DNA of 64,000 nucleotides, taken from assembly GCF_036711975.1 (NCBI RefSeq), contig NC_091966.1, forward strand, positions 39,625,501-39,689,500, in the 5' to 3' direction. A program made the position numbers and the translations under genes. Under the pieces are notes generated by a model that saw nothing but the letters and a program-made list of their open reading frames with translations, did not search any database and was not told the DNA's origin. Position 1 is the stretch's first letter, and every line of letters begins with the position of its first letter. This document shows, piece after piece, positions 9,701 to 64,000 of the stretch. Source of the stretch: Onthophagus taurus. Lineage: Eukaryota > Arthropoda > Insecta > Coleoptera > Scarabaeidae.

Positions 9701-12700
9701 AATTTCATGAATCGTTTCAAAAATAACCTTCGTCGATTCGCACTCTTCATTTTCCGGTTCAATTTGAATTTCATCCTCTTGAGTCTTTAACTCTGCACAT
9801 TCTTCTTCCTCAATCGCACCTAATTGAGTTTCACACTCATCAATATTAACATTAACAACCTCACTTTCAATTTCTTTCAAATTTTTATTACAACTAAGTG
9901 ATGATGATTCATTACAAAATTCCTCAATCATCTTAATTATTTCAATCGAAGGTTTTCTAATCTCCTCATCATTTTCGTCATTTAAATCCTCCTCTAATCG
10001 TTCAACATCTAACACATTACAATTAGAAGTATCAGGAACATCAACAACAGGATCAAGGAAATAATCGGGATTATCAGGATCTTCAACATCATCAAAAGGA
10101 AAATCATCGTCAACCCTACCTGATTGTTGTTCGTTGTTATCCTCTTTCTTCTTAAAACTGTACTTTTTCAACAAACACGTAGTTCGCGTATTGTGTTCTA
10201 ACGGCACCCAAACGTTATATTTTCGCAATTCGGCGGATGTTAAAAGTTCGAGTTGGACCGCGGCATCCCAAAACACTTTTTCGTCAGCTGTCCGGTTCAC
10301 GTAACACTTCACCCCTTGTTTTAAAACGTACGATTTGCTAGGTTCGGAAAATTGTGGAAACCCGCCGGAAATATCGACCGCTTTATTAATATCTTTAAGC
10401 ACCTTTTTAAATTCGCCCGTATACCGTTTTTGCCACTTTTCAAAAACCGGCGATGGAGTCGGACTTTCGGGTCGCTTCTCCAAAATTTCAACTAATCGAT
10501 CGAAAACGAGTTCTTGTGAAATTTCGTCTGAGAAGACCACTTTTTTGGGTGGAATTGTTGCGAGATCTTTATCCGGTTTTTTTAGACTACTTTTTATTAT
10601 GGGTGGAGGTAATTTTGGGGGGACATCCATTAAAGGGATAAAACCATTGTTAACTAACGCGAATAAATCGCCTGATGGAAGATCATTTTCGCCATAATAC
10701 TGGTCGTTTAAACGATTACTCTCAACAGGACCTGAAAGGAACGTTTCGAATTCATTTTCAGGGAAGTCCATATTCGATTGATTAATTTTTGGGTCAAATT
10801 GATTAAATTCCTCGCATGTTGATTTGTATAAAACTCTTGGTGGACTTTTATTTTCGCTTTTCTCTTGGTGTTTATCATTATCAACCTCGTTATTTAAATC
10901 TGAATCACCAGAAATAACCATTGGTTCCACTCTTGTACTTGTTTCTTCAATCTCGTCCATACTTACACTTAATTCACTTATTGCATCAGAAGTTATTGAT
11001 GATGACTCCATAGATAATCCACTTACAGAGATTTTTTCTATTTCTGATGGACTCATTATTTTTGCAACTTCCATTTCTGTTTGGATAAATTTCTCAAAAT
11101 CAGATTCATTGATTTTAATTATATTTTCAGATTCTGCATGGATTACATCATCAATTTTATCATCCTCTACAACTGATTGAACTGATTGAATTGATTGAAT
11201 TGAATGAATCGAACTTTTATCCATATCTGTACCACATTCAGATTCTTCACTTTCACTCTCTTTATTTTGATCTTGACTCAATTCAATCGAAACATTATCT
11301 TCATCAATTTGATTTGATTTCTCCAATTCTTCATCCTCCTCATTTACAATTAATTCAGGAACAATTTCTCGATTTTCCTCAACATTTTCAACCTCTCTTT
11401 CCCCAATCTCTTCATCTTCACAATCAAGATTCTCTTCAATATCTTTATTTACAACTTCTTGCTCTTGATTTTCTTCAATTTCATTTGTAGTAATTTGATT
11501 CGTTTCATTTACAATTTTATCATTTTCATTCAAACTCCCACACACTTCTTCACTTTCCCCTTGTAAATCATTTCCTTCATCCTCCACCACCCCCGAAATT
11601 TCTTTCTCAATTGTATTCTCAATCGTATTTTCAATTTCATCTTCACCAACTCGAATTTCTCTTTCGATACTTACCCTGTCAATTTCATCCGAATTAAATG
11701 TTTCTTTATCGTTATTGTAGCTTTCGAAAATTCCTCGTTCGCAATCTTCGTCTTCTCGTATTGATGCGTCATCAAATAAGCCGCATCGTTGTTCCCTGGG
11801 GGGTGTTATTAATCCGTGGTGGAACTCTAACGAACTAAAATCGCCCCTTAAAGCTGCGTATTCGATTTGTTTGAATAATGATTGGGGATCTGAATCGGAT
11901 TTGTCGTTTCCGAAGATGCTTTCGCTGTTGGGGACCGAAACGGCGACGACTTCATCTTCGTCGCTATCTAAGACTATTACTTCGTTTGTGGTGAATGTTG
12001 GGCGTTTTAGATCTTCGTGACGTTTTCTTCTCTTGTGGCGTTCCTTCCGTTTTGGTGGTTGCTAAAAATTAATTTTTAATTTATTACTTTATTGTTTTGG
12101 GACTAATTACTTTTTTAACGTAAGTGATTTCGCAATCACTATCGATATCGATTTCGCAGATGATATTTTCGTGCTCGCTTTCGCTCTCACTTTCTTCCGA
12201 ACTTGAAACGAAGTTTTCCGAAAAATCGAATGTATTGGGGTAGGATAACGATTTACACGAATCGTTTTCTGTACTAATACCCTATAAAAAATTTAAAATT
12301 TTTATTTTTAAGGGCTAATTTAGTTGTTATCTTACAACAGATTGCATCATATCAGTGATGTTTCTATCAGAAGGAACATGACAGCTTTGTGTGCTTCTCA
12401 AATACTTAAAGTATGCTCTTGTGGTTCTCTTTCTTGGAAAAACAATGTGTTCGACAGTTTTAACTGTAGAACTAGACGGAGTTTCAAGAATTTTTTTTAA
12501 TATCAAATCGTCTTTAACTTCTTCTTGCGTCTTTCCAAACGATTGCAACAAATACTTTTGTTGCTCAGATCTTAAATGTTTCGGGGTTAATTCTTGCATA
12601 TCTTGGTAGTTTAAGTAGTAGGAATAAAATCCTGGATAACTTGACGTTTCTACTGGCATCGTTAATAAACAGTGACTAAAAATTTAAAAAATTATTAAAT

Positions 12701-26200: not shown

Positions 26201-27498
26201 CGAAAATATGCGTTTTACCAAAATGTACTGAGATGACGTCACAAAAAGTGACGTAACGTCAAAACTTTAAAGTGATTTTTCGAAAACTTTTACACTTTTC
26301 TGCCCTTTTTTTTCTTTGTAACGGCTTATTTGAGTGACATGATGATTCTTGACTTATACCTTATTTGATGCAGCTTTAATGAGTTTATATCATTTTGTGT
26401 TAATTTAAATAGTATCCTGTGAGACATGGTTTAGTAGAAGATTGGGACCTGATGGAACGTTTTCTTGAACAATGTATATTTAAATATTTGCGTGCCGAAC
26501 CGGAGGATCATTATTTCCTACTTACCGAACCACCTTTAAACACACCTGAAAATCGCGAATACACCGCTGAAATCATGTTTGAATCCTTCAATGTGCCTGG
26601 CTTGTATATTGCCGTTCAAGCAGTATTAGCACTTGCCGCTAGTTGGGTTTCAAGGTCTTTAGAGGATAGGACTTTAACCGGGATCGTTATTGATAGTGGA
26701 GATGGTGTTACTCACGTTATTCCAGTAGCTGAAGGTTATGTTATTGGTAGTTGTATCAAACACATTCCAATTGCGGGAAGAAACATAACTTCGTTTATCC
26801 AATCGCTGTTACGAGAGCGTGAGATTGGAATTCCACCTGAACAATCGTTAGAAACGGCGAAAGCGATTAAAGAACGATATTGTTATATTTGTCCTGATAT
26901 CGCGAAAGAATTTGCGAAATTCGATGCCGACCCGGCGAAATGTATAAAACGGTACGAAGGTATCAATTCAGTGACGAAACAACCGTTTGGGGTTGATGTG
27001 GGTTACGAGAGGTTTTTGGGTCCTGAAATTTTCTTCCATCCCGAGTTTTCAAACCCGGATTTTACAATTCCGTTATCAGAAATTGTTGATGATGTAATTC
27101 AAAATTGTCCAATTGATGTTCGCAGGCCTTTATATAATAACATTGTGTTGTCTGGTGGTTCGACAATGTTTAAAGATTTCGACAGGAGATTGCAAAGGGA
27201 TTTGAAACGAACTGTTGATGCCAGACTTAAACTTAGCGAGAGTTTAGGGGGCGGACGAATTAAACCTAAACCTATTAACGTAAATGTCGTTACACATCAT
27301 ATGCAGAGATACGCCGTGTGGTTTGGAGGAAGTATGTTAGCATCAACGGTAATTAAAGAATTAAAATGGAAATGAATTTGTTATAATTTTTTTTTTTTTT
27401 AGCCTGAATTTTATCAAGTTTGTCATACGAAGGCGGCGTATGAGGAGTATGGACCTAGTATTTGCAGACACAATCCTGTGTTTGGCACGATGACATAA
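20287..27498 (+). CDS. Arp3: Actin-related protein 3, Arp2/3 complex subunit
   Basis: Exons 20287-20330, 20412-20592, 26413-27348 and 27403-27498 join in phase with GT-AG introns to give 418 aa, the usual Arp3 length. The N-terminus ([17 protein letters not shown]) has the actin-fold phosphate-1 loop. The exon 2/3 junction reads [20 protein letters not shown]. The phosphate-2 loop DSGDGVTHV is at about residues 169-177. FGGSMLAST is followed in the last exon by [10 protein letters not shown] and the C-terminus NPVFGTMT. Arp3 and Arp2 form the actin-like dimer that nucleates branched filaments in the cytoplasm when activated by WASP/SCAR proteins. Conservation is high throughout and nothing is missing. 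The oddity is intron 2 (5.8 kb), which is packed with nested elements, while introns 1 and 3 are 81 and 54 bases. Confidence 0.97.
20877..21000. mobile_element. Orphan element end (CAGGGTGATTCAT)
   Basis: A typical TA-CAGGGTG terminus is present, followed by ATAAGAACCAACATAGAATG. I could not find an inverted partner in the intron, so this is probably a truncated copy. Confidence 0.4.
21096..22171. mobile_element. Foldback element (1.08 kb)
   Basis: The ends CAGGGTGGTTCAG... and ...TTAACCACCCTG are inverted and preceded or followed by TA. The arms share inverted phrases such as GTCAAAGTTGAGCCAAAAAT, AAATATGGGTTGTAAAGC and GCGCCCTCTAAGGG (GACGGCGCTAGGG in the other arm). There is no open reading frame of interest in the 400-base centre. 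Confidence 0.75.
22236..22995. repeat. Inverted-repeat block
   Basis: The left arm phrase GGATTTAATACATTATTACC followed by TCATTTCATGTGGAATT returns inverted near 22935-22985 (CCACATGTAATAAGGTAATA). No clean terminal CAGGG motif was found, so the class is uncertain. Confidence 0.6.
23077..23940. repeat. Inverted-repeat block with long diverged arms
   Basis: The left arm (ATCTATCCGTGCAAAAAGT, GAGATCGATATCTTCG, AAATTTTCGGATCCACGG) matches inverted text in 23715-23937 (CCACGGACCCGAAAATTT, GAAGATATCGATCTC, CTTTTTGCACGGATAG). The arms are about 230 bases around a 400-base spacer. It abuts the next mariner-type element. Confidence 0.65.
23962..24906. mobile_element. Tc1/mariner-type foldback element, family A copy 2
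   Basis: The ends CAGGTGTGTCAAATGTCTGG and CCAGACATTTGACACACCCTA match copy 1 at 15019-15823. On the minus strand (24324-24590) a longer transposase N-terminus survives: [20 protein letters not shown], then [20 protein letters not shown] and a second helix-turn-helix-like part ending NLLKSGRQK. The family therefore descends from an autonomous Tc1/mariner-superfamily element; this copy has lost the DDE domain. Confidence 0.8.
24910..26160. repeat. Degenerate tandem repeat, about 82-bp period
   Basis: The phrases TATCTCTTCTTTCCAAGCAG, TTATTAGTCTTTTCCAGCAG and TATCTAGCATTCTGGAAGCA recur. TCTCTTCTTTCC starts at 25581, 25663 and 25745, a period of 82 bases in the best-kept part. The half-unit CAGTAT(C/T)TAG also recurs more often. 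The block at about 25200-25430 is less regular. No coding potential is evident. Confidence 0.65.
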
Positions 27499-27919: not shown

Positions 27920-30610
27920 AATCGGTTACTGTCGTAAAGATTAATTATCCTAACATCTGTGTTTAAGATTATGCGAGGTTGCGTTCAAAAAATGATAATT
28001 CCAAAATTGGAAGGTTGCAAGAAATGATCTTCAAAGTATTAAATACCAAATAAATTTGCTTCAAATTGCTTTTTATTTTATATCGATATCTCAATTAGTT
28101 TATGAGATAAGTTAAAATTAATTATACTAATATTTGTGCGTAAGATTTTGCGAGGTTGCGATCAAAAAATGATAACTCCGAAATTTGAAAATTCCAAGAA
28201 ATGATTTTCAAAGTATTAAATACCAAGTAAATTTGCTTTGAACTGCTTTTTATTTCATATTGATATCTCAATTAGTTTATATGAGATACATCAAGATTAA
28301 TTATACTAACATTTGCGCGTAAGATTTTGCGAGGTTGCGATCAAAAAATGATAACTCCGAAATTTGAAGATTCCAAGAAATGATCTTCAAAGTATAAAAT
28401 ACTAAATAAATTTGCTTTAAATTGCTTTTTATTTCATATCGATATCTCAATTCGTTTTTGAGATACGTTGAGATTAATTATACTAACATTTGTGTGAAAG
28501 ATTTTGCGAGGGTACAATCAAAAAATGATAACTCAGAAATTTGAAGATTCCAAGAAATGATCTTCAAAGTATTAAATACTAAATCAATTTGCTTTAAATT
28601 GCTATTTATTTCATATCGATATCTCAATTAGTTTATGAGATACGTCAAGATTAATTACACTAACATTTGTGTGTAAGATTTAGCTCGGTTGCGATCAAAA
28701 AATGATAACTCAGAAATTTGAAGATTCCAAGAAATGATCTTCATAGTACTAAATACTAAATAAATTTGCTTTAAATTGCTTTTTATTTCATATCGATATC
28801 TCAATTAGTTTATGAGATAAGTTAAAATTAATTATACTAATATTTGTGTGTAAGATTTTTGCGAGGTTGCGATCAAAAAATGATAACTCCGAAATTTGAA
28901 GATTCCAAGAAATGATCCCCTAAGTATTAAATACTAAATAAATTCGCTTTAAATTGCTTTTTATTTCATATCGATATCTCAATTAGTTTATGAGATACGT
29001 TCAGATTAATTATACTAACATTAGTGTGTAAGATTTTGCGAGGTTGCGATCAAAAAATGATAACTCCGAAATTTGAAGATTCCAAGAAATGATCTTCAAA
29101 GTATTAAATACTAAATAAATTTGCTTTAAATTGCTTTTTATTTCATATCGATATCTCAATTAGTTTATGAGATATGTTAAGATTAATTATACTAACATTA
29201 GTGTGAAAGATTTTGCGAGGTTGCGATCAAAAAATGATAACTCCGAAATTTGAAGATTCCAAGAAATGATCTTCAAAGTATTAAATACTAAATAAATTTG
29301 CTTTAAATTGCTTTTTATTTCATATCGATATCTCAATTAGTTTATGAAATAAGTTAAAATTAATTATACTAATATTTATGTGTAAGATTTTGCGAGGTTG
29401 CAATCAAAAAATGATAACTCAGAAATTTGAAGATTCCAAGAAATGATCTTGAAAGTATTAAATACTAAATAAATTTGCTTTAAATTGCTTTTTATTTCAT
29501 GTCGATATCTCAATTAGCTTATGAGATACGTTCAGATTAATTATACTAACATTTGTGTGTAAGATTTTGCGAGGTTGCAATCAAAAAATGATAACTCAGA
29601 AATTTGAAGATTCCAAGAAATGATCTTCAAAGTATTAAATACTAAATAAATTTGCTTTAAATTGCTTTTTATTTCATATCGATATCTCAATTAGTTTATG
29701 AGATACGTTCAGATTAATTATACTAAGATTTGTGTGTAAAGTTTTGCGAGGTTGCGATCAAAAAATGATAACTCCGAAATTTGAAGATTCCAAGAAATGA
29801 TCTTCAAAGTATTAAATACTAAATAAATTTGCTTTAAATTGCTTTTTATTTCATATCGATATCTCAATTAATTTATGAGATACGTTAAGATTAATTATGC
29901 TAATATTTGTGTGTATGATTTTTCGAGATTGTGATCAAAAAATGATAATTCCGAAATTTGAAGATTCAAGGAAATGATCTTCAAAGTATTAAACACTAAA
30001 TAAATTTGCTTTAAATTGCTTTTTATTTCATATCGATATCTCAATTCGTTTTTGAGATACGTTAAGATTAATTATACTAACATTTGTGTGTAAGATTTTG
30101 CGAGGTTGTGATCAAAAAATGATAACTCCGAAATTTGAAGATTCCAAGAAATGATCTTCAAAGTATTAAATACTAAATAAATTTGCTTTAAATTGCTTTT
30201 TATTTCATATCGATATCTCAATTAGTTTATGAGATAAGTTAAAATTAATTATACTAATATTTGTGTGTAAGATTTTGCGAGGTTGCGATCAAAAAATGAT
30301 AACTCCGAAATTTTAAGATTCCAGGAAATGATCTTCAAAGTATTAAATACTAACTAAATTAGCTTTAAATTGCTTTTTATGTCATAACGATATCTCAATT
30401 AGTTTTCAAGATTCATAAAGATTATTTATCATAGCATTTATGCTAAAATTATGCAAGATTTAGTTTAAAAAATCATAACTCCGAAATTTGAAGATTCTAA
30501 GAAATGATCTTTATAGTATTAAATACCAAATAAATTTGTTTTAAATTGTATTTTATTTTACAACGATATCTCAATTAGTTTTTGAGATACAATTTCTTTA
30601 ATATCTGTTT
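27920..30610. repeat. Satellite array, 177-bp monomer, about 15 copies
   Basis: The phrase AAAAAATGATAACTCCGAAA recurs with GATAA starting at 27994, 28171, 28350, 28527, 28704, 28882, 29059, 29236, 29413, 29590, 29767, 29944, 30121 and 30298, plus a degenerate copy near 30472. Spacing is 177 in nearly every step. Monomers also share GATATCTCAATTAGTTTATG and AAATTGCTTTTTATTTCATA. The edge copies are most diverged, as expected for an array homogenised by unequal exchange. It lies between the 3' ends of Arp3 and TCF25. Confidence 0.95.
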
Positions 30611-33900: not shown

Positions 33901-36900
33901 ATGTTATATTTTTTAACGCACATTTTTTGAGATAAAATTGAAATGTACAGGTGTCCCAAAATTGAGAAACCATATGTTGACATTTTAAAATAGGAACCCC
34001 CATTTTTTTGTTGCATTTGTGATTATTTATTTATTTGTGACAAATGTTTAATAATGTAATAATAACCATAAATTACGTTTTAACCCATAAGCAATTTTAG
34101 TATTTTAACATACTGTTTTAAAATTTTTTTTATACCTATATTTATTTTTCTTCGTCCTCACTGTGTTTTACAATTTCTATATTAGCTACAATTGACGATA
34201 AAAAAATTATTTCTTTCATCATCATTTTCAAAACAGAGAAGGCTTATAGGTTCTTAAGAAAAATCTGTATTATTCCTTGATTTATTGCTATGAAATGATG
34301 TTATAATTGGGTCTGAAGATATTAATAGTCTGTTTAAAATGTCTCTATTATTGTGTATTCGTGACATTTTTCTGGAAAAGTTCTCTCTATACCTTCTAAG
34401 GTCTTTATTCCGAGTTTCTTGCGCATCTTCTGAAAGCACGCCAGTCTGGATACTTAATGATTTTATTATTAAGTGGCCATGCACAAAAATTTTAGGCACT
34501 GCCACAGGCATATAATACCAATTATATAATTGATTGTATAATAGAATTGTGTCGTTTGTAAAATTTTTAAATGCAGCAATGTTCATTTCTTCATAATAAT
34601 TTTTGTGAAATAGGCATCCGGCTTGGCATTTTAACGCGTCATTGATTTTCTTTTTTATTGCTGTGTGTTGGATAGGTATTTTTTAACTAAAAAAATACTT
34701 TGGACTTGTTTGGGAAGAAGGTTACAATATGATATCCGAATCATGACTCTTTTTTTTAAGACCTCTAGTTTTAGATCTAATCCTACAGTTAGTACTAATA
34801 TTAATTCATAAAAAATAGTTATATTGAAAAATTGTAAACGATTAACAGTTTCAAAACTAACTTTCAGTATTCACTGTCGAATATCCGTAGACACCACCCT
34901 GTATATTACCCATTTTATTGAAAATGCGCAAATATGCGCAATTTATTTTTTTGAGAATGGGAAGTGTAGACTTGAAATTACATAAAAAAACAAATTTCAA
35001 CCTGGGATCTTGTGGGACTTTTTTGTAGCTTAACTTAAAGTTTAACATTGTAAATAAAATCTGCTTATGAACAGTGTTGGGAAAAACACAGTGTGTCCGT
35101 AAAGTAACGGATATAGGCGATAAAATCATAATAAACGGTTTATGGAAAAATCCCTGAAACGGGTCTAAAGATTTAAATTTTTTGATGCTGATTTCAAATT
35201 TTTTCCGCCATTTTTAAACCAGTTATGACGTCACCGATATTTTTTTCAAATGGCAATCCCCCATTTTTATTACGGAATATGAAAGAGGATTTTTTTCTGA
35301 ATCTATTACAGTCAATATTAATATTGGTTACATAAGAAAATTTTCGAGAAGAATTACTTTACAGTTTAATTACTTCAAATTAGTATAATGATAAAAATAG
35401 CAGTAGCCATGAGTAACTATGGTAACCAATTATTTTAAACAATTCCCTGATTGTCAAAAACTGATTTAGTAAAGCTTCTTGAAGTGTGGTGGCGCGCCAT
35501 CCTGTTGGAATAACTGGCGTTGGAATTGAGTTGTGTCAACATTATCAGGATGGAAGGAATGACATCGCTTTGAAAAAATTTAAACATCTTTTTCCAGTTA
35601 AGGTTTCCTCAAATCTTTTGCGGATATTGAATGTGCGACTTTCTTGGCTAATTTGGATTTTGGGTAGCGCAATACCGATAACTTTGTCTATTTACTTGTC
35701 CACTCAATGTAAATGTCCCTTCGTCGAAAAAAATTATGCTTTTGACAAAGTCTTCGTCATCGTTGCAAAAACTACGATTCATTGCTCGTGAATCAGGTTT
35801 ACTTTATGGGAATGATATTTTGCGGGTTTTAAAATTTTATGAACCGTTGATTTACTAATGTCCAAATTAGACCCAATACTCCTTACAATAACATGAGAGT
35901 TGGGTTAGGTTGGGTTAACATTCTTGCCCAGCCAAAAATACGATTTGTTGAACTTCCCCTGAAACATTTAGTAGGCCAGACTTCGAGAAATGCTTCGAGA
36001 GATGGCCATGCTGTTTAAATTTGGTCACAGCTAGACTCACCATACTTTGGTTAATGAGTTGACGATCAGGATATGTTATATTAAAGAGGTTAACTACTTA
36101 CTAAATCAGTTTTTGACACTTAGAAAATTGTTTAAAATCATTGGTTACCATAATTACTCATGGCTACTGCTATTTTCATCATGTCAACAAATCTGAAGTA
36201 ATTAAACTTTAAAATAATTTTTCTCGAAAATTTTCTTATGTAAGCAATATTAATATTGACTGTACTAGATTCAAAAAAAAGAAACTACAATAAATAGGTA
36301 TAGAAATATTTATAGACAATTTGTAGAGAATTAAATTCCGTTTCGGGAAGGCTAATAAAATATAGGGCGTTCTATTTAAAATTTTCGACTTTCTCCCTAT
36401 TGAATATGGAGAAACGGTAATTCGATTTTTGACCACGCTGTATAAGATACTCTGATACAACACATGACAATCTATTTGACAGCATCTGAACAGTAATTGA
36501 GCCAATTTAGAGCTTTTTTGAATGAACATTGGCTGGGATATGCGGTTTTAAAGAGCATGGTGAAATTCACAAAAACAAACTTAAAATCAAAATAACTCGA
36601 AAACGAAAAAAGCTAGGTACCAATAACTTTTATGAAAGTCAACATATTTTTTTATGTACACTTAAAAGGTGTACTACAAACTATAGCATTCCATTTAAAA
36701 TAACGAAGTTATGGTAAAACTGTACGAATAGTGAAACCTAAAAAGTTTTAACAAACCAGTTACATAAAACACCCTGTATAAAAATAATCTTAAATATACA
36801 AAATTAGTAACCAACCTATTAACTTGTCTTCTATAATCCAATCTACAATTACCTTGAGCAATATTAAACAATGGATGAAATGCGCATTCAAGACAATAAA

Positions 36901-37881
36901 GAGCTCTTTCAATAAATTCAGCTGCAATGGCAAGGTCCTCAGCTATTCTACACAAATCTGATAATTGAATGAGTGTATCAACATGATAGGGATGCTCGTT
37001 TATTATTGCAACGATATTATCAGGATTTAAACTTTCAACGGCTTCTAAAAAACGATTTTGAACCTGTCTATAGCTCTGATTGTGTTCATAAGTAAAATAC
37101 TGTAACCCTGACTTATGTTCTGGGGAGTTGTCTTGTTTCATCATTGAAAGACCGGTTTTTCCAACCTGGGGCCAAGTATCCTTACCGGAAACAAGCCAAG
37201 TCATTTTAACATGACCTCTACCAGTACCACGATTTTTTCGCTTACTAAATCAAAAAAAAAAAAAATAAGTAAACAAAATAATCGTATTTTTAGTTTTTAA
37301 TGATTACTTACTGTTCAGTTTGTATTATTTTTGATCCAAAAATTCGTTTTAATTCATTATTGGGATTTAAATGTTTATGTTGAATACTTAAAATGCATTT
37401 TTTAAGCTGAATATTCCTTTCTTGTTTCGAAATAGAAGCCATCGGCTTTGAAACGTAATTTTCTCCAAGAAGTTTGTTTACCTCTCGTACTGATTTTTCA
37501 ACTTCATCCACTTCAGCATTATCTTCACTACTCCTTTGAGCATTAACATTTTTTCCTTTTTTCTTCTTTTTCTTCTTCTTCCTCTTCACCGATTCGTGAT
37601 TATTATCTCCTTCACAAGATTTATTAGCCTCGGTTTCATTATCATCTTCTTTTACTTCACTCTCAGAATGAGATTGTTGATTTAACTAATTCAAAAGATT
37701 ATTGCGGATTAAATCTAATCTACTATTTAATAATATTATCTTTATCGCTTACCAAGTCGTATCTGTTGATATTTAACTTCTTTCTTGCACCGCCGGATAC
37801 AGGCAGTTCCGCTTCATTATCGGACACTTCATCCGTCAGTTCTTTATCACCTTGTAATTTTCTCAACACGCGTGATGACAT
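30990..37881 (-). CDS. TCF25: TCF25 / NULP1, ribosome-quality-control associated protein
   Basis: Seven exons join in phase on the minus strand: 37881-37753, 37685-37312, 37244-36816, 32194-31790, 31734-31485, 31427-31252 and 31194-30990. They give 655 aa, close to the vertebrate length. The N-terminus MSSRVLRKLQGDKELTDE, the basic Lys run (MKRKKKKKKKKGKN), the Rqc1/TCF25 core (CRLDYRRQVNR; TALEFCKLLLSLDPDKDPLG; LSQLPNFAFSVAAAHFHLAD) and FFRSLLPSFNPNELV near the end identify it. The C-terminus is acidic (DADVDENDESDDDELNN). The family acts with Ltn1/Listerin and NEMF on stalled 60S ribosomes; nuclear roles have also been proposed. Intron 3 (4.6 kb) contains nested transposons; all others are 52-67 bases. 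Confidence 0.95.
33010..33363 (-). mobile_element. Inverted-repeat element fragment, shared with 52189-52550
   Basis: Read on the minus strand, it starts CAGGGTGTTTCGGTGACTCG and continues CATGTAAAATCGTTAGGCA and CAAACTTTAGGAACATCCTG in diverged form. The same order of phrases appears on the plus strand at 52189-52550, about 19 kb away. An internal CTGTATAG at about 33121 suggests two fused elements. Confidence 0.65.
33380..33833. mobile_element. Near-perfect palindromic MITE (454 bp), same family as the outer element
   Basis: CAGCTGTCTCACGTAACTGG at the left returns as CCAGTTACGTGAGACACTCTG at the right. The two arms of about 220 bases are nearly complete inverses, including the phrase CCACTTCCGGTCTACCGGAA near each arm, with a spacer of only a few tens of bases around ATTAAAAAACAGTTAAC. 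Its arms resemble those of the outer element 32217-36776. It would form a long hairpin as RNA or single-stranded DNA. Confidence 0.85.
34254..34680 (-). pseudogene. Relic of an insect repetitive ORF (unidentified transposon protein)
   Basis: The minus strand is open for about 140 codons: KKKINDALKCQAGCLFHKNY early, then AVPKIFVHGHLIIKSL, GVLSEDAQETRNKDLRRYRE and NRLLISSDPIITSF. The conserved-looking 'SE.AQE.RNKD..RYRE' pattern reminds me of a repetitive insect protein, but I cannot name the family. It lies inside the composite element in TCF25 intron 3. Confidence 0.45.
35280..36285 (-). mobile_element. Mariner-like inverted-repeat element with transposase relic
   Basis: The left arm (TATTACAGTCAATATTAATA, GCAGTAGCCATGAGTAACTA) returns inverted at about 36085-36275 (TACTCATGGCTACTGCTATT, AATATTAATATTGACTGTAC). 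On the minus strand at about 35830-35480 the relic reads IIFFDEGTFTLSGQVNRQSY and then, frame-shifted, FQQDGAPPHFKKLY. These are the second-Asp and HD-like catalytic neighbourhoods of mariner-type transposases. Frame breaks make it inactive. Confidence 0.7.
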
Positions 37882-54399: not shown

Positions 54400-55425
54400 T
54401 TACACAAATACATAAATTAAAATACAGATAATGATAACTAAAATTACAGCGCCTGTTACAATTAAAATGTACTTTTTTGTTAGAAATTTAAGTTGATGTA
54501 CATGGACTTCTTGAACATGGGGTTCATGTCGAGCAGAATCAGTTGCTTGTTGAGGTTCACTTTCTGTTTCAGAAATTACTGTACCTCTTAACCCAATTCT
54601 AGCTTCATATTCTTTACATACATCAGATATGTTAAGTACTTCAGACTAAAAAGAAAATATATTAAAAAAAATATAAGAATTGTAAAGATTTTTTACCAGC
54701 AATTTTCTTAATTGTTCATTTTCGGCTTGTATGTCTTCTAATTTCACTGATTTTTTTTTAGTAACTTGAACGTATTGATGCTTGAGTTCTTCTTGTTTAT
54801 GTTGTTGTTCTTTTTGTTGATGTGGTTCTTGTTCTTTTTGTTGATGTGGTTCTTGTTGTTTATGTTGATGTGGTTCTTGTTGTTTATGTTGCTGTTGTTC
54901 TTTTTGTTGATGTTCTAGTTGTGGTTGGAACATGAATGGTTGATTCTGTTGTAATCGACTAGAATGTGTCTCACTTGGAACGATTTTTACATATCCCTTA
55001 ACTTTATGGACTATACTTTCCTGTAACATTTCAAAATTCTTTAAGATTGACATGAAATCAAAATTAAGTTGCTGCGTTTTCCTATGCCTCTTAAGCGATT
55101 GGTATCTGGTGGTAAGAGCAGTAAGATCATCCATGTTATTAATCGTTTTTGTCATTAATTCATTAGTACCGTGTTCTATCGTATTTAATTCTTTTATTAA
55201 TTTCGACGTGTCTTTTGATGTTCCAATTTTATTAAGCACTTTTCTCATAGAAGCAACTAATTATTGTAAAAATAGTAGTAATTAGAAAAAAAATTGTATT
55301 ATTTCTTTAATACCATTTTTTGTTATCTTTCGTATTCCAGAATCGATCGCTTTAGTGAGGTTTTCATACTCCTTTTCCTTGAACAGCTCACTTTTTTTTC
55401 TAGTCAACGAGGCAACTTTTTTCAT
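54400..55425 (-). CDS. Syntaxin-like protein with zero-layer arginine, 305 aa
   Basis: Exons 55425-55314, 55256-54697 and 54645-54400 join in phase, with the same intron positions as the paralogue at 60473-61433. The N-terminal half resembles the syntaxin-7/12 Habc bundle (KEYENLTKAIDSGIRKITKN; IGTSKDTSKLIKELNTIE). A Gln/His-rich linker follows, with repeated EPHQ(H/Q)K units (about residues 150-195). Then comes a SNARE-like stretch and a C-terminal anchor (YILIVTGAVILVIIICILIY, about 283-302). Aligned without gaps to the paralogue, the Qa zero-layer Gln is Arg (about residue 244), and the following heptads contain Pro and His (ETESEPQQATDSARHEPH), so a normal SNARE helix is unlikely. The ORF and splice sites are intact. 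It may be a neofunctionalised or regulatory syntaxin, or an early pseudogene. Confidence 0.8.
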
Positions 55426-55884
55426 GGTTTAATCTATAAACACCACAAAAAATATATTCTCAGATATAACGCCGTAGAATATGTCACAGAACTGTCAATA
55501 ATATCATTGAGATTGTGTTTTATAGTATTTCTGATTTTCGTTATTGATCAAATCTTTAAAGGTTTTAAATTACGCGGAAGGAGTTCTTGAATATTTCTAT
55601 TATATTTTTATCAGTGAGGTAGGGGTTTTTAGAAAATGTTTTTATGAACTTTATTTTCCCTTGGTTGAAGAGCACTGAACAAATAATCCAGCATTATGTA
55701 TTATGTTATGATTTTAGTAGGTCGTCGCCCATCTGGAAATACATAATTCAAGAAGTTTTATCTTTAGTGGTTTCAAAAAGTACATGTCGCCATAGCTGCA
55801 TTACATGATAAAGTTGTTAATAAAGTTTTATTAAGAAAAACTAACCAATAAACAAAAACATTAAACAAGAAATAAGTAACTACC

Positions 55885-56874
55885 TACTACTACAACAAAT
55901 ACTCAAAATGGCCACCGTTTTCTTGTAAACATGCGTTAATTCTATGCCGAAAATTGCATTGTACTCTTTAAAGTGGAGCGGGATTGCGCAGGGTGTTAGA
56001 AACATTTAAAGTTCTCTGTTTTAGGTCTTCTTCGCTGTCAATAGCAGAAGAGTAAATTTTTGTTTTCAAGGCACCCCATAAAAAGAAATCACAGGGTGTT
56101 AGATCTGGTGATCTTGCTGGCCATTTTACAGGAGCATCATTTCCTCTTCCTATCCAATTTGGATAAACAGTATTTAAATACTGACGTACTACTGATGAAA
56201 AATGTGGCGGTGCACTATCATGCATAAACCACATATTTTGTTGAAGTAATAAAAGCAAATCTTCTAGTAAAATAGGTAACGTTTCTTGCAAAAAAATTAA
56301 ATAATTATTTCCATTTAAATTATTTGGTATAACAACTGGCCCTATAAGAAAATTATCGATAATTCACATATTCACTTTAAATTCATGTTGAAAATGAGTC
56401 ACTTTTGTTGCATGGGGATTTTCATCGGAGTAGACATGTACATTATGGAAGTTAGTTAAAATTACAAAATATTACGCAGGATTCTGAATCAATAGGTAAT
56501 AAATCTTGAATTTTTTGAATATGAAATGGATGGAGATGTTGTTCTTGTAAAGCGTTATGAACAACTGATTTTGGAATCGCTAATTCCAATGCCAGTCGTC
56601 TACAACTTATTTTTGGGTCTTCTTCTACTCTGTCTAGAATTTGTTCCTCAGTTGCTACTGTTCTCGTAGTACGTTTACGTCCACAATCAAAAGCCCGTGG
56701 CTTTGAACTACCAGTCTCCCGAAGACGTTTAACAATGCTTGCAAAAGTTTGGCGATTTAGTACTCTGCGGTTAGGAAACATTTCCCTGTAAACTCTAACA
56801 CTCTCGCGACTATTGCTGTTACAAAATTCATAAACTAATAACATGTCTATTTGTTCGCCATATGAAAAATTCAT
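55885..56874 (-). pseudogene. Transposase (DDE, IS630-Tc1-mariner type), nearly full length
   Basis: The N-terminal part 56874-56452 is open: YGEQIDMLLVYEFCNSNSR and RETGSSKPRAFDCGRKRTTR form a helix-turn-helix with basic linker, followed by DRVEEDPKISCRRLALEL. After frame breaks it continues VYSDENPHATKVTHFQHEFK and GPVVIPNNLNGNNYL. The C-terminal open part is 56291-55968 (MWFMHDSAPPHFSSVVRQYL; WPARSPDLTPCDFFLWGALK), with a tail NGGHFEYLL near 55885. By my count 37 residues separate the second and third catalytic aspartates. At least one stop (in the stretch after FKVNM) and a frame shift disable it. Confidence 0.75.
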
Positions 56875-57117
56875 GATGAATCAAAGATAACACGCAAAAT
56901 AAAAAATACGAATACCACTGTCAAGTTTCAGTTACATAAACAGTTTTTGTTTTTAACATTAATCATACCTAGCGAACTATTAACAGAAGCGTTACTAGTG
57001 TCATACAAACGCATGACCAAAAAATGAATAAAATCCATTGAGGATTTGTCGACTTATTTAAAAAAATATATTATTTTTAAAGCTTTCTAGCGTCTAAACA
57101 AATTAATTTTGTATATA

Positions 57118-58865
57118 CAGGTGTCCGGTATCTTCCGCATCAGAGCATTATACGGTTGTAGGATACATTATTTTCAAGCGATCTATCTAATAAAATTTTT
57201 TCGAAATGTTTATAATAACCGCACGGGAACTGTTTAAAATTCTCCGCTATTATCCAATAGCGGACGATTTTGATTCACACAAATAGTTTATTTCTCTTTC
57301 CATGTCGAATCTATTGGTGAGTACACGTGAGAAACGTGTTTGATGGACGCGGCGGTCCGGCCGAGGGTGCGGCCGATTACCTGAATCTGATTTACGATTT
57401 GCCATTGGACGTCGAAAAACAGTTCCCGTGCGGTTATTATAAACATTTCGAAAAAAATTTATTAGAAAGATCGCTTCAGAATAATCTTTCCTACCACCGT
57501 ATAATGTTTATGTTTATTGATGATGCAACAAAGAATTTACAAGCCCACAAAAAAAAAAATACAAAAAATAATACATAAAAGTAAATAAAATAATAAACAC
57601 TCTGAAATTATCAACAAAACCGGACTTAATAACAGCGCATCATCAAAAAGAGCCGAGTCAATGCAGACATAGCTTGTCTGCTATTGTTTTTCATCGGCCC
57701 TTTTATAATAGAAATAATAAATAAATTGGTTTCAAACAAGATAGCACTAACTATATATATATATATAAAAAAACTATATTAACAGAAGTAAGCACCTAAA
57801 TTAGTTAGCAATGAAAAATAACAATAATAAGGAATAATAAAAAAAAATACAACAAAATTAAAGAACAAAAACATAGCAAAATGAAGAAAAGGTTGAACAA
57901 GCTGCCGCGAACAATCTCCCCCTGCCCTGTTAGGTCATACAATTCAGAAATGCAAAAAGTGAATATTACCTCTTAATAAGAACTTAAATTTAAGATTTAA
58001 ATTTAAATGCTGTTCTGCTCAATCAAAAGAATTTTTTTATAATATGACTTGAAACTTCGCTCACTCAGCTGCTTGACTGAATCAGGAAGGCTATTCATAA
58101 TAGTAGTTACATTATAAGAGTAAGATCTTTTAAAGATTTGAAGTTCATGGCGTGGTATGCATAACATGTGCCGATGTCGTATATTAATATTGTGCACGTC
58201 ACTGCGATACCTGATTCTATTGGCTAAATATGGTAGACATTTATACATAATAATTCTGTGAAAGAGGCAAGCACTGTGAAGGATTCTACGACGCGTCATG
58301 TTCAACCAATTTGCCCAATTCAGAGTGTGTGATATGTTTTCCCGTGTTTTAATACCATATATAAACCTCAGACATGAGTTCTGCACTCTTTGGATACGCA
58401 CTTTGGTTACAGAGTCTAAGCATGGATGATATAAAGCATCTCCGTAATTGGATATGGACAGAACAAGAGCCTCACATAATTGGATTTTCAAACGTTGGTT
58501 AAGAAAGCTCCTGTTACTGTACAATAATTTAAGCGTCACGTAGGCTCTACGAATTAGTGAAGAAACATGTCCACGGAATCGGAGTGCGGTATCAAGACGT
58601 ATACCCAAATTACAGCACTCGTCCGTAAAATTCAATTTAACACCACCCACTCCGACACTCAGAGATCCCTTGACCCTGTTCACCACACCACCACTCCCAA
58701 ATACTATAACTGCTGATTTAGACGGATTAATAATCAAACAATGATTTGAAGCTTCGTGGGCCAATTTGTCTAAATCAGAACTGATAGCTCTGTCAGCCTT
58801 GTCAATGTTATTCTAATAATAACATTGACAATAATGCTCTGATGCGGAAGATATCGGACATCCTG
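57118..58865. mobile_element. Nested element (1748 bp) with about 34-bp terminal repeats
   Basis: The ends CAGGTGTCCGGTATCTTCCG and CGGAAGATATCGGACATCCTG are inverted and continue GCATCAGAGCATTAT. TA is duplicated on both sides. Inside is a hairpin (57204-57240 against 57428-57465, GCACGGGAACTG) and a 5'-truncated LINE. The related MITE at 38.6 kb shows the uninterrupted target (TTGTATATAGATAAGTTG). Confidence 0.85.
58003..58764 (-). pseudogene. 5'-truncated LINE: RT thumb and C-terminus (253 codons open)
   Basis: The minus strand encodes CLIINPSKSAVIVFGSGG, DECCNLGIRLDTALRFRGHV, LCEALVLSISNYGDALYHP and RIQRVQNSCLRFIYGI, the usual end of a Jockey/CR1-like ORF2. It closes with a stop at 58003 followed by a 3' UTR running down to about 57580. 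The 5' end stops near 58800. It is open over its whole length, so this is a fairly recent insertion. It has no catalytic RT motifs and cannot move by itself. Confidence 0.8.
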
Positions 58866-58984
58866 TAGATAAGTTGAGTTAAATCATCATATTTTTGGTC
58901 AAGGCTTCCGTTGTACACGTCATTTCCGGACATCTGTATAGCATTTTAGATAAACATTGTCTTATTGCAGTGTTGACCGCATTT

Positions 58985-60245
58985 AGATTGATATGAAATC
59001 AACTGTAACGCCTCGGCCGCAAGCGACCTCGGCGTTTTGTAGGTATATTATGCTTCATTATATTGGTGCCGAGGTCGCTTGCGGCTAGAGTTGATGCATA
59101 TCAACCCAAGGTCGCAAGCGACCTCGGCATTTTCAATACATATGTTGACTTATTGCAGTGTTGACCAGATTTGGGTTGATATTTAACCAACTCTAACGCC
59201 TCGGCCGCAATCGACCTCTGCATTTTCAATACATATATTGACTAATTGCAGTGTTAGCCAGATTTGGGTTGATATAATATCAACTCTAACGCCTCGGCCG
59301 CGAGCAACCTCGGCATTTTCAATACATATGTTGATTTATTGCAGTGTTGACCAGATTTGGGTTGATATGATATCAACTCTCGCGCCTCGGCCGCAAGCGA
59401 CCTCGGCATTTTGGATATACATGTTGTCTTATTGTAGTGTTGACCTGATTTAGATTGATATGAAATCAACTCTAATGCCTCGGCCGCAAGCGACCTCGGC
59501 TTTTTGTGAGTATATTATGCTTTATTATATTGGTGACAAACTTTATGTCGATGTCATATCAATTCCAGTGCCTCGGCCGCAAGCGACCTCGGCATTTTCA
59601 ATACATATGTTGACTTATTACAGTGTTGACGAGATTTGGGTTGATATTTAATCAACTCTAACGCCTCGGCCGCATGCGACCTCGTCGTGTGTGGGTATAT
59701 TATGCTTTATTATATTGGTGACAAACTTTATGTCGATGTCATATCAACTCCAGTGCCTCGGCCGCAAGCGACCTCGGCATTTTCAATACATATATTGACT
59801 AATTGCAGTGTTAGCCAGATTTGGGTTGATATGATATCAACTCTAACGCCTCGGCCGCGAGCGACCTCGGCATTTTCAATACATATGTTGATTTATTGCA
59901 GTGTTGACCAGATTTGGGTTGATATGATATCAACTCTAGCGCCTCGGCCGCAAGCGACCTCGGCATTTTAGATATACATGTTGTCTTATTGCAGTGTTGA
60001 CCTGATTTAGATTGATATGAAATCAACTCTAATGCCTCGGCCGCAAGCGACCTCGGCTTTTTGTAGGTATATTATGCTTTATTATGTTGATGACAAAGTT
60101 TACGTCGATGTCATATCAACTCCAGTACCTCGGCCGCAAGCGACCTCGGAATTTTCAATACATATATTGACTAATTGCAGTGTTAGCCAGATTTGGGTTG
60201 ATATGATATCAACTGCAATGCCTCGGCCGCAAGCGACCTCGGCTC
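58985..60245. repeat. 93-bp satellite with GC-rich core and six-monomer higher-order repeat
   Basis: The core CCTCGGCCGCAAGCGACCTC starts at about 59011, 59199, 59292, 59385, 59478, 59571, 59663, 59756, 59849, 59942, 60035, 60127 and 60220 (degraded at 59104), a 93-bp period. Spacers fall into types: A-like (CAATACATATGTTGACTTAT), C (GATATACATGTTGTCTTATT) and B (GGTATATTATGCTTTATTAT). The order A', A'', C, B, A, B restarts at 59756, 557 bases after 59199. It sits about 230 bases from the 3' end of the second syntaxin gene. Confidence 0.92.
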
Positions 60246-60472
60246 ATTACCTTATTGCATTTTTGATTAGATATGGATTATTTTTTTGACAAATTTAACA
60301 CAAAAATTCTCGATCACTATTTATACACAACTATTTTATTTTTCTAACCTATATTTCTAAAGAAAACAACGTTCGGTTTATTATGATCACAGTTGGATTT
60401 TTTTGAAATTCCGGCAAACAAATTTGTTTCAACAAGACATCTTTTAAATTTTTGAACGAAAAGTTAATTTGA

Positions 60473-61433
60473 TTACGCAAATAACCAAATTATAATAGAA
60501 ACAGTGACAACTAAAACTACCGCGCCTATTATCATCAAAATGTACTTCATCTTTAAATATTTTTTTTGATAAACATTGGCTTGACGAACATCGCGGGTTC
60601 CACGTTGAACGGAACCAGTCGCTTCTTGTATAGTTTTATCTATATGGGTAATTACTTCACCCTGTTCCGCAGTTTTCGCTTGAAAATCTTTATATATTCC
60701 AGCCATCTCCGTCATTCTAGACTAAATGAATTAAATTGCTTATAGAAAAAAGAATTGTACATAATGATTTTTTTACCGTCAGTAGTTTTAAATTCCGGGA
60801 ACGTTCCAGTAAAGCTTCATTTACTGCTTTCTGTTTGTCAATTGCTTCTTGTACCCGTTCTTGTTCTTGTATTTGTTGTTCTACTTGTTCGTGTTGCTGA
60901 TGTGGATGATGCGTGGATACTTGGGTAGAATGTGATATCCGCTGCTGACTTTTGACTCCTTTGCTTGGAATAATTTTAATGTATTGTTTAGTTGTATGTG
61001 TTAAGTTTTCTTGTATCATTTCAAAATTGTTCATGGCTGCCAAGAGATCATATTTTAATTGATCGCATTTGCTCTGTCTCTTCTGCGATTGATATGTCGC
61101 AACCAGACCACTGAGTTCGTCCATTTTATTATAAGTTTTTGTAACTAATTCTTTAGTACTAAGGTCTATCGCATTTAGTTGTTTTACTAATTTCGGTGTA
61201 TCTTTTGATGTTCCTATTTGATTTCCCATTTTTTTCATGGAAGCAACTAATCATTTTAAAAATAGTAGTAACTAGAAAAACATATTTTTATAATTTCTTT
61301 TAATACCATTTTTTGTTATCGTTCGTATTCCCGAACCGATCGCTTTAGTGAGGTTTTCATATTCCTTTTGCTTGATCGTTGCTTCACTTCCTTTTCTACT
61401 GAACGAGGATGAAATTCGTGAAATTTTATACAT
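60473..61433 (-). CDS. Syntaxin-7/12(13)-like Qa-SNARE, 281 aa
   Basis: Exons 61433-61307, 61246-60777 and 60721-60473 join in phase. An Habc-like N-terminus (KEYENLTKAIGSGIRTITKN; IGTSKDTPKLVKQLNAIDLS; ELVTKTYNKMDELSGLV) is followed by a Gln/His/Glu-rich linker. Then comes a SNARE motif spanning the exon 2/3 junction (ALLERSRNLKLLT then SRMTEMAGIYKDFQAK, TAEQGEVITHIDKTIQEATG) with zero-layer Gln at about residue 219. A C-terminal anchor closes it (YILMIIGAVVLVVTVSIIIW). Qa-SNAREs of this class drive endosomal membrane fusion with cytosolic helices facing vesicle R-SNAREs. The start is the ATG at 61433; upstream in-frame text has no better ATG. It is the tandem paralogue of the gene at 54400-55425. 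The exact subfamily (7, 12/13 or 17) is inference. Confidence 0.85.
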
Positions 61434-61832
61434 GGTGAAATCCCTTTTTACTTTATACACCCCCCCAAAAATTATAATCCCCGTTAACTTTACATTCGGT
61501 AAACAAATACAATATAAATTTAAAAAGAAATTGTAATTATAACAGGTTATGTCATGGAATGTGTCACAGAAATGTCAGTAACATCAGTTCTGATTTTCGT
61601 TGTAGATCGAATTATTAAGTTTTAACACTTACATTTCAAACATTTGTTTAAATAACATTTTCTTGAAGGAAATGAAAAATCTTTAAAAATGATTATAAAC
61701 TCAACGTGGTTATCACTTTATCATAGAGTAATAGTACACTATCATCATTAATTACCAAATACCAGAGGAGGAACATATTTGGCATTGTATGCTTTTTAAG
61801 TTTCGCAAGCGTAGTAATTCAACAATTTTTCC

Positions 61833-62039: not shown

Positions 62040-64000
62040 GAAAATTAAAAATCCTTTAAAATGAACCCAAACTCGACCTATTTATCTCCAACCATTATCG
62101 AGATATCTTAATTTTTAGTAAAAAAAAATGGCGGTTATTTGACAGTTATAACCTAACTTTTTTATTTTTTACACCAAATATATCGTGTTTGGTATCAAAT
62201 GAAAGCATTTTTGATCCTTATTAAGACCATTTCAATATTTATCAAAAAATCGTTATTTTTAATTTTGACATTTGACAGTTTCTAACCTAACTTTTTTATT
62301 TTATAATCCAAATATGTCGTGTTTGGTATCAAATGAAAGCATTTTTGATTCTTATTAAGATCATTTCGATATTTATCAAAAAATCATTATATTTAATTTT
62401 GACATTTGACAGTTTCTAACCTAACTTTTTTGTTTTTTAACCCAAATTTATCATGTTTGGTATCAAATTAAAGCAATTTTGATTGTTATTAAAATCATTT
62501 CAATATTTGTCAAAAAAACGTTATATTTAATTTTGACATTTGACAGTTTTCAACCTAACTTTTTTATATTTTAACCCAAATATATCGTGTTTGGTTTCAA
62601 ATGAAAGCATTTTTGATTCTTATTAAGATCATTTCAATATTTATCGAAAAATCATTATTTTTAATTTTGAGATTTGACAGTTATAACCTAACTTTTTTAT
62701 TTTTTACACCAAATATATCGTGTTTGGTATCAAATGAAAGCATTTTTGATCCTTATTAAGACCATTTCAATATTTATCAAAAAATCGTTATTTTTAATTT
62801 TGACATTTGACAGTTTCTAACCTAACTTTCTTATTTTTTAACCCAAATATATCGTGTTTGGTATCAAATGAAAGCATTTTTGATTCTTATTAAGATCATT
62901 TCAATATATATCAAAAAATCGTTATATTTAATTTTGACATATGTCAGTTTTTAACCTAACTTTTTTATATTTTAACCCAAATATATCGTGTTTGGTTTCA
63001 AATGTGAGCATTTTTGATTCGTATTAAGATCATTTCAATATTTATCGAAAGACCGTTATTTTTAATTTTGACATTTGACAGTTTCTAACCTAACTTTTTT
63101 ATTTTTTAATCCAAATATGTCGTGTTTGGTATCAAATGAAAGCATATTTGATTCTTTTTAAGATCATATCAATATTTATCAAAAAATCGTTATATTTAAT
63201 TTTGACATTTGACAGTTTCTAACCTAACTTTCTTATTTTTTAACCCAAATATATCGTGTTTGGTATCAAATGAAAGCATTTTTGATTCTTATTAAGATCA
63301 TTTCAATATATATCAAAAAATCGTTATATTTAATTTTGACATATGTCAGTTTTTAACCTAACTTTTTTATATTTTAACCCAAATATATCGTGTTTGGTTT
63401 CAAATGTGAGCATTTTTGATTCGTATTAAGATCATTTCAATATTTATCGAAGGATCGTTATTTTTAATTTTGACATTTGACAGTTTCTAACCTAACTTTT
63501 TTATTTTTTAACCTAAATATATCGTGTTTGGTATCAAATTAAAGCATTTTTGATTCTTATTAAGATCATTTCAATATTTATCAAAAATCGTTATATTTAA
63601 TTTTGACATTTGACAGTTTTTAACCTAACTTTTTTATTTTTTATCCCAAATGTATCGTGTTTGATATCAAATGAAAGCATTTTTGATTCCTATTAAGATC
63701 ATTTCAATATTTATCAAAAAATCGTTATATTTAATTTTGACATATGTCAGTTTTTAACCTAACTTTTTTATATTTTAACCCAAATATATCGTGTTTGGTT
63801 TCAAATGTGAGCATTTTTGATTCGTATTAAGATCATTTCAATATTTATCGAAAGATCGTTATTTTTAATTTTGACATTTGACAGTTTCTAACCTAACTTT
63901 TTTATTTTTTATCCCAAATGTATCGTGTTTGATATCAAATGAAAGCATTTTTGATTCCTATTAAGATCATTTCAATATTTATCAAAAAATCGTTATATTT
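62040..64000. repeat. 134-bp satellite with three-monomer higher-order repeat, open at the right edge
   Basis: ATCGTGTTTGGTATCAAATG and GACAGTTTCTAACCTAACTT recur; CGTGTTTGG or its variants start at 62184, 62318, 62452, 62586, 62719, 62852 and 62987, and so on to the window end. A marked variant (TTTGGTTTCAAATGTGAGC) starts at 62987, 63389 and 63790, 402 and 401 bases apart, which is three monomers. The first unit begins with AATCCTTTAAAATGAACCCA, wording shared with the arrays at 39.3 and 43.2 kb. Confidence 0.93.

Follow-up and report, generated by a model that had tools for sequence, protein, structure and literature searches.

Syntaxin-12/13 is the Qa-SNARE of recycling endosomes. We describe here a tandem pair of genes of this family, copy A and copy B, found in a 64,000-nucleotide stretch (the window) of contig NC_091966.1 of the beetle Onthophagus taurus, together with a related gene, C, on the same contig; copy A appears to have lost a usable SNARE motif. 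To judge by excerpts of the sources cited, motif-less SNARE derivatives are documented in R-SNARE lines, namely phytolongins, Sec22a/c and VAMP7b (PMC4861013) and Lgl and Sro7 (PMC2639358). Phytolongins are land-plant R-SNARE derivatives in which the longin domain and the anchor are kept and the SNARE motif is replaced (PMC2779197; PMC4861013); some hydrophobic layers survive, in the N-terminal half only, and the zero-layer Arg is lost (PMC2779197, section 9). The motif is also lost or degenerate in animal Lgl and in the yeast tomosyn relatives Sro7/Sro77 (PMC2639358). In PMC3627133, i-SNAREs are proposed to inhibit fusogenic SNARE complexes by binding one of the subunits or taking its place; at the trans-Golgi network SYP51/52 are fusogenic. 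No Qa-derived case like copy A was found among the matches listed in the open-licence PMC literature, as seen in titles and the starts of abstracts. On balance, and with modest confidence, we favour the reading that copy A is a syntaxin-12/13 paralog that no longer drives fusion and, as an Habc protein with a membrane anchor, occupies its partners instead.

The layers of the three proteins were numbered as we assume them to run in syntaxin-1A. Counting from the start of exon 3, with no gap, places the zero layer at codon 20 in each of the three genes. The residue is Gln in C and B and Arg in A; the original prediction had claimed this change of Q to R in A. The codons (AGA in A and CAG in B) are different at 3/3 bases, which no error at a single base could produce. 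From -7 to +8 the layers read MIIVFLV-Q-IIVTVGLA in C, LLMMYFT-Q-IIIAVGVA in B and LLVICYI-R-ITPAAEQH in A. Layers -7 to -1 of A are still hydrophobic (mean hydropathy 3.14), and layers +2 to +8, in its own register, offer two Ala only, with Pro at +3. A heptad permutation test was used with AlphaFold2 in place of a coiled-coil program. The N-half hydrophobics were found to be concentrated at layer positions in all three proteins (p 0.00025 in C, 0.011 in B and 0.0024 in A). For the C-half heptad pattern, p was 5e-5 each in C and B and 0.30 in A in its own register.

AlphaFold2 was run on exon 3 of A and B, with the other copy as the only aligned sequence. For A it predicted two helices (residues 6-20 and 43-80), with a predicted local distance difference test score (pLDDT) below 50 over residues 20-46, and for B a single helix (residues 2-81). 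The predicted break in A coincides with the zero layer, where confidence is low, and the contrast between the copies was obtained under equal conditions. The C-terminal anchor of A was predicted as a hydrophobic helix with a mean pLDDT of 93-95 over exon 3 residues 61-80.

Genome-wide searches covered the 290.8-Mb assembly. A pattern search for TCAGG telomere repeats gave 0 matches, which has no bearing on the taxon. The Pfam SNARE family (PF05739) scored 50.3 bits for C and 34.3 bits for B, against a cut-off of 26.8, and gave no match to A at E up to 1. Across the genome this family was found at 10 places, of which 7 lie above the cut-off; B and C are within those 7, and A is absent from all 10. 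Solved syntaxin SNARE motifs in the PDB were likewise matched by B and not by A. Of the features that define a Qa-SNARE, copy A has the predicted C-terminal anchor; a recognisable motif, the zero-layer Gln and a continuous hydrophobic helix from -7 to +8 were not found in it. Given the change of Q to R plus the loss of most of the C-half, A is unlikely, from its sequence, to work as a Qa-SNARE. The original prediction had proposed that the helix was probably unusable, and this is supported by Pfam, the layer register, AlphaFold2 and codon models; structure prediction of the last exon, which it had put forward as a check, agreed in that the predicted helix of A ends at the zero layer and that of B is continuous, at low confidence.

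Selection on the two copies was estimated as omega, the ratio of nonsynonymous to synonymous rates (dN/dS), and gapped columns were dropped from the pairwise, relative-rate and codon-model counts. Between A and B, omega (Nei-Gojobori) was 0.47 in Habc (bootstrap 0.25-0.83) and 1.17 in the SNARE motif (0.63-2.17). The nonsynonymous difference was greater in the SNARE motif (57.7/132.1 sites) than in Habc (54/217.5; p 4e-4), while the synonymous difference did not differ between the two (p 0.67). Synonymous divergence (dS) was 0.65 in Habc, 0.56 in the SNARE motif, 0.14 in exon 1 and 0.19 in the anchor; half of its value over the whole coding sequence is 0.26.

Joint codon models were then fitted to A, B and C, with the linker and anchor excluded; they were run from three starting points, with and without a clock, and were stable, though with just three sequences, of which C is a distant one, their values are rough. 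On the A branch omega was 0.24 in Habc and 1.3 in the SNARE motif. An omega of 1 was rejected for the Habc domain of A both with equal neutral times for A and B (p 2e-5) and with free times common to both domains (p 0.024), the free-time fit giving nearly equal times (1.35 and 1.31). No difference from 1 was detected for the SNARE motif of A (p 0.47, 0.60). The two domains of A differed from each other with and without a clock (p 0.0002), and still did so when the 5' tract in which A and B are most alike was left out (p 0.0013, clock). To judge from these models, the Habc domain of A is under purifying selection and its SNARE motif is without detectable constraint on this branch. A dN/dS below 1 in the Arg-bearing copy, on which the original prediction had hinged, is therefore seen in Habc and not in the SNARE motif, in a comparison of A with two paralogs within one genome.

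The frame, splice sites and start codon of A are all intact on splicing and translation, as had been claimed for the first two. In a neutral simulation of drift from the coding sequence of B (4000 runs per value), the probability of finding no stop was at most 0.0018 from 0.15 substitutions per site upwards, and 0.085 at 0.05. An intact frame being this improbable under neutral drift, copy A is not an old pseudogene; the constraint that can be detected lies in Habc. Nor does it have the marks of a processed or decayed pseudogene: its introns are kept, its frame is intact and Habc is constrained, and the SNARE part alone looks neutral.

Several observations weigh against reading copy A as a non-fusogenic Habc protein. 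One codon is missing in its C-half. A gap placed there by MAFFT, before +6, turns the layers of A into ITPAAHVV and gives a C-half p of 0.005, the best of 8 placements, and 3/8 placements (before +5, +6 and +7; p 0.014, 0.005 and 0.006) restore Val at +7/+8, which argues that the C-half of A is damaged rather than featureless; part of the register near the membrane may survive, and +2, +3 and +6 would then be occupied by T, P and H. AlphaFold2 confidence was low in the SNARE region of both copies (about 52-62 by ten-residue blocks in B). Copy B is fast-evolving as well, with 15/57 SNARE columns identical to C compared with 10/57 in A. The B-branch SNARE omega of 0.26 differed from 1 only at p 0.044 (clock) or 0.11 (no clock), and the SNARE omegas of A and B differed at p 0.054 with a clock and 0.17 without. 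Relative-rate counts in the SNARE motif were 9 (A) and 4 (B), p 0.27. In a per-domain fit with free times, twice the log-likelihood difference for the A Habc test was 3.2 (p about 0.07); branch lengths were unstable in that fit, which was replaced by the joint model. Finally, excerpts of the yeast literature report that Q-to-R is sometimes tolerated, vam7 and sso1 strains failing at 37 C and not at 23-25 C (PMC11091695).

The ancestry of the pair was traced with the exons of B as queries. Besides A and B themselves, these found one near relative, the canonical gene C, which lies on the opposite strand of the same contig at a distance of 170 kb; exon 3 of B also matched a less closely related syntaxin on contig C7, and exon 3 of A matched A, B and C. 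Both copies splice to open frames. All introns of A and B are GT-AG (57/51 nt in A, 60/55 nt in B), with positions and phases identical between the copies and matching those of C, whose intron 1 is about 4.5 kb long compared with 57-60 nt in A and B. Since these intron positions are common to C, A and B are DNA-level duplicates of a syntaxin-12/13 gene and not retrocopies. The Habc family Syntaxin_2 scored 112.1 bits for C, 59.9 for B and 42.1 for A (cut-off 26.5). It gave 16 matches across the genome, with 5 rows above the cut-off; in our reading these represent A, B, C and a fourth gene, on contig C11, which is split over two exons. The stops counted in the A and B matches fall within intron 1. 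The best PDB match of A was Syntaxin-12 (2dnx, E 8.7e-10), which scored about equally for A (42.1 bits) and B (43.1 bits). By its Habc type and shared introns, A belongs by descent to the syntaxin-12/13 family.

A search with the Synaptobrevin family gave 11 places in the genome, including C itself and weak rows, one of which covers a C-terminal part only; the five R-type motifs read from it are n-syb-, VAMP7-, Ykt6-, Sec22- and tomosyn-like. Copy A is not among the 11 places and has no Synaptobrevin-type motif (no PF00957 match); the longin family is not among its Pfam matches, its N-terminal domain being Habc.

How the surviving parts of A could work is suggested by other syntaxins. In excerpts of PMC7470827, closed syntaxin-1 has Habc folded back onto the SNARE motif; Vps45, the SM protein in the Vps45-Tlg2 complex, touches the N-peptide, Habc and the SNARE motif, whose N-terminal half is helical on Vps45. 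By analogy, the parts kept in A would be those used by regulators. Copy A probably regulates fusion instead of carrying it out. It would sit on an endosomal membrane via its anchor and could present Habc to an SM protein, a tether or cognate SNAREs, perhaps along with what is left of the N-terminal SNARE helix. Zippering would stop not far past the zero layer, so that partners of the syntaxin-12/13 pathway would be occupied and held without fusion; the role of A could then be that of a decoy or brake acting on B, C or both, or that of an adaptor in sorting. That binding leads on to inhibition is our inference. A bolder form of this reading, which we offer tentatively, is that A may be a first example among animals of a 'non-SNARE syntaxin', selected for Habc plus anchor once the fusion helix had been released, convergent on phytolongins even in retaining heptads mainly in the N-half, and a dedicated regulator of B or C. 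Copy A would then be a natural separation-of-function gene, in which Habc and anchor would be worth keeping without fusion. With A, B and the canonical C together in one genome, knockdown and pull-down experiments are directly possible.

The main functional rival is a half-zippering inhibitor, a dominant-negative endosomal i-SNARE in which the N-half (-7 to -1) would still nucleate a complex with its Qb, Qc and R partners, only for the broken C-half to stall it. Intact N-half heptads in A (p 0.002) next to a damaged C-half are what such a protein would show, as is a predicted helix reaching the zero layer only, and excerpts of PMC5643095 provide a precedent in the C-terminally truncated Qc-SNARE Vam7, which is reported to give stalled, partly zipped trans-complexes. 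We nevertheless think it unlikely, if worth serious attention, as the SNARE motif of A, taken whole, shows no constraint (branch omega about 1.3, with too few codons to treat the N-half alone) and A has no Pfam SNARE match. An A-branch SNARE omega of about 1, the missing SNARE-family match and the expanded linker repeat could also be those of a decaying gene, a recently working syntaxin that is now becoming a pseudogene and has lost the SNARE motif first. The intact frame, splice sites and start, the neutral simulation and the Habc tests all speak against decay, and the Habc domain of A is as near to C (36/90 columns) as that of B (35/90), which makes this explanation decidedly improbable.

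We also weighed readings in which the Arg itself is either useful or an artefact. Excerpts of PMC11091695 describe Q-to-R in a Q-SNARE as a loss of function that in many cases, including yeast, is rescued by R-to-Q in the R-SNARE, so A might function with R at layer 0, offset by a Q-bearing R-SNARE partner. However, 5/5 of the R-type motifs read from the Synaptobrevin search have R at this layer, and the C-half layers of A are damaged as well; such a swap is very improbable. No R-to-Q partner was found among these five motifs, in an exon-by-exon search that may miss one. A base or assembly error at 54.58 kb masking a normal motif, which the original prediction had named as capable of restoring Q, was rejected and has a negligible likelihood: the zero-layer codon differs at every base, exon 3 is 35% identical to B at the protein level with no frameshift, the whole exon would need to be rewritten, and the genome search found no further close exon 3.

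The layout of the locus agrees with much of what had been described for it. A tandem syntaxin pair with common intron positions was borne out, A and B being minus-strand paralogs separated by about 5 kb that hold transposon relics and a 93-bp satellite. The last-exon alignment, said to be gapless, is so to and past the zero layer and not throughout, because exon 3 of A (81 aa) has one codon fewer than that of B (82 aa). The Gln/His repeat is real; its gain from nothing did not hold up, since the linkers of B and C are also Gln-rich and the repeat of A is an expansion of that linker. The proposed protein, with Habc and a membrane anchor and no usable SNARE helix, comes close to the selection result; an i-SNARE-like role is kept as a possibility, A having no detectable SNARE motif. 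The earlier observation is thus confirmed and its interpretation partly supported. The 5' flanks of A and B share 30 nt at 86.7% and 40 nt at 82.5% identity (blastn); with two blocks in common, the duplication must have included part of the upstream region. From exon 1 through intron 1 into the beginning of exon 2 (A 55210-55405, B about 61200-61400), 80-nt windows are 0.84-0.91 identical, and divergence K between the copies is 0.13 in intron 1 and 0.42 in intron 2; this tract is possibly the product of gene conversion. As a Qa-SNARE, copy B is divergent too, with Thr at layer -1.

Table 1. Coordinates of the syntaxin genes and of other features; positions are those of the window unless a contig or segment is named (ORF, open reading frame; aa, amino acids)
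Feature	Position	Strand	Content
Copy A	54400..55425	-	3 exons, 305 aa; Habc, Q/H-rich linker, degenerate SNARE motif, C-terminal anchor
Copy A exon 1	55314-55425	-	N-terminus and start of Habc
Copy A exon 2	54697-55256	-	Habc, Q/H-rich linker, start of heptads
Copy A exon 3	54400-54645	-	degenerate SNARE motif and transmembrane anchor
Copy A zero-layer codon	54586..54588	-	AGA (Arg), codon 20 of exon 3
Copy A linker repeat	54801..54914	-	24-bp tandem repeat, 4.8 copies, coding Gln/His/Glu/Pro
Copy A 5' flank blocks	55477..55568	-	similar to B flank 61557-61625 (blastn)
Copy B	60473..61433	-	syntaxin-12/13 paralog, 3 exons, 281 aa, zero-layer Gln kept
Copy B exons	61433-61307, 61246-60777, 60721-60473	-	from splicing and translation
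Copy B exon 3	60473..60721	-	recognisable Qa SNARE motif and anchor
Copy B zero-layer codon	60662..60664	-	CAG (Gln), codon 20 of exon 3
Gene C	contig C1 about 39504.2k-39509.6k	opposite to A/B	3 exons, canonical 265-aa syntaxin
Gene C main segment	L018:2324-3067 = G000:C1:39508823-39509566		exon 1 in L023:7714-7819
Between A and B	55968-56880	-	apparent broken mariner-type transposase, two ORFs (named by eye)
Between A and B	58003-58812	-	reverse-transcriptase-type ORF (named by eye)
Satellite arrays	58957-60243, 62137-64000, 27933-30590		units of 93, 134 and 177 bp, 13.8 to 15 copies each; the array at 62137-64000 extends to the window end
Other ORF	6761-12061	-	1766 aa
Other ORF	26413-27375	+	Arp3-like (named by eye)
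Other ORF	36695-37249	-	TCF25-like (named by eye)

Compared with known systems, A is like syntaxin-12/13 in ancestry (best PDB match 2dnx), in sharing the exon structure of C and in its C-terminal anchor. With the i-SNAREs (syntaxin 6/Tlg1, GS15/Sft1, Bet1 and plant SYP51/52) it may share an outcome, a block of fusion on the same membrane; i-SNAREs, however, act inside SNARE complexes, whereas A has no recognisable SNARE motif. As in the tomosyn/Lgl/Sro7 line (excerpts of PMC2639358), the SNARE motif has been lost or has degenerated and the remaining protein is kept, but that line derives from R-SNAREs and consists of regulatory proteins without a membrane anchor. By design, phytolongins are a nearer parallel to A than i-SNAREs. 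Both are SNARE-derived, keep the N-terminal domain and the anchor, have an unrecognisable motif with heptads mainly in the N-half and have lost the zero-layer residue; the likeness is one of design only and carries the caveat of the Val at +7/+8. They differ in origin (R with longin, Qa with Habc) and in host, plant as against non-plant, and phytolongins are a conserved family, whereas A is one gene in one genome. On this analogy, copy A would be to Qa-SNAREs what phytolongins are to R-SNAREs.

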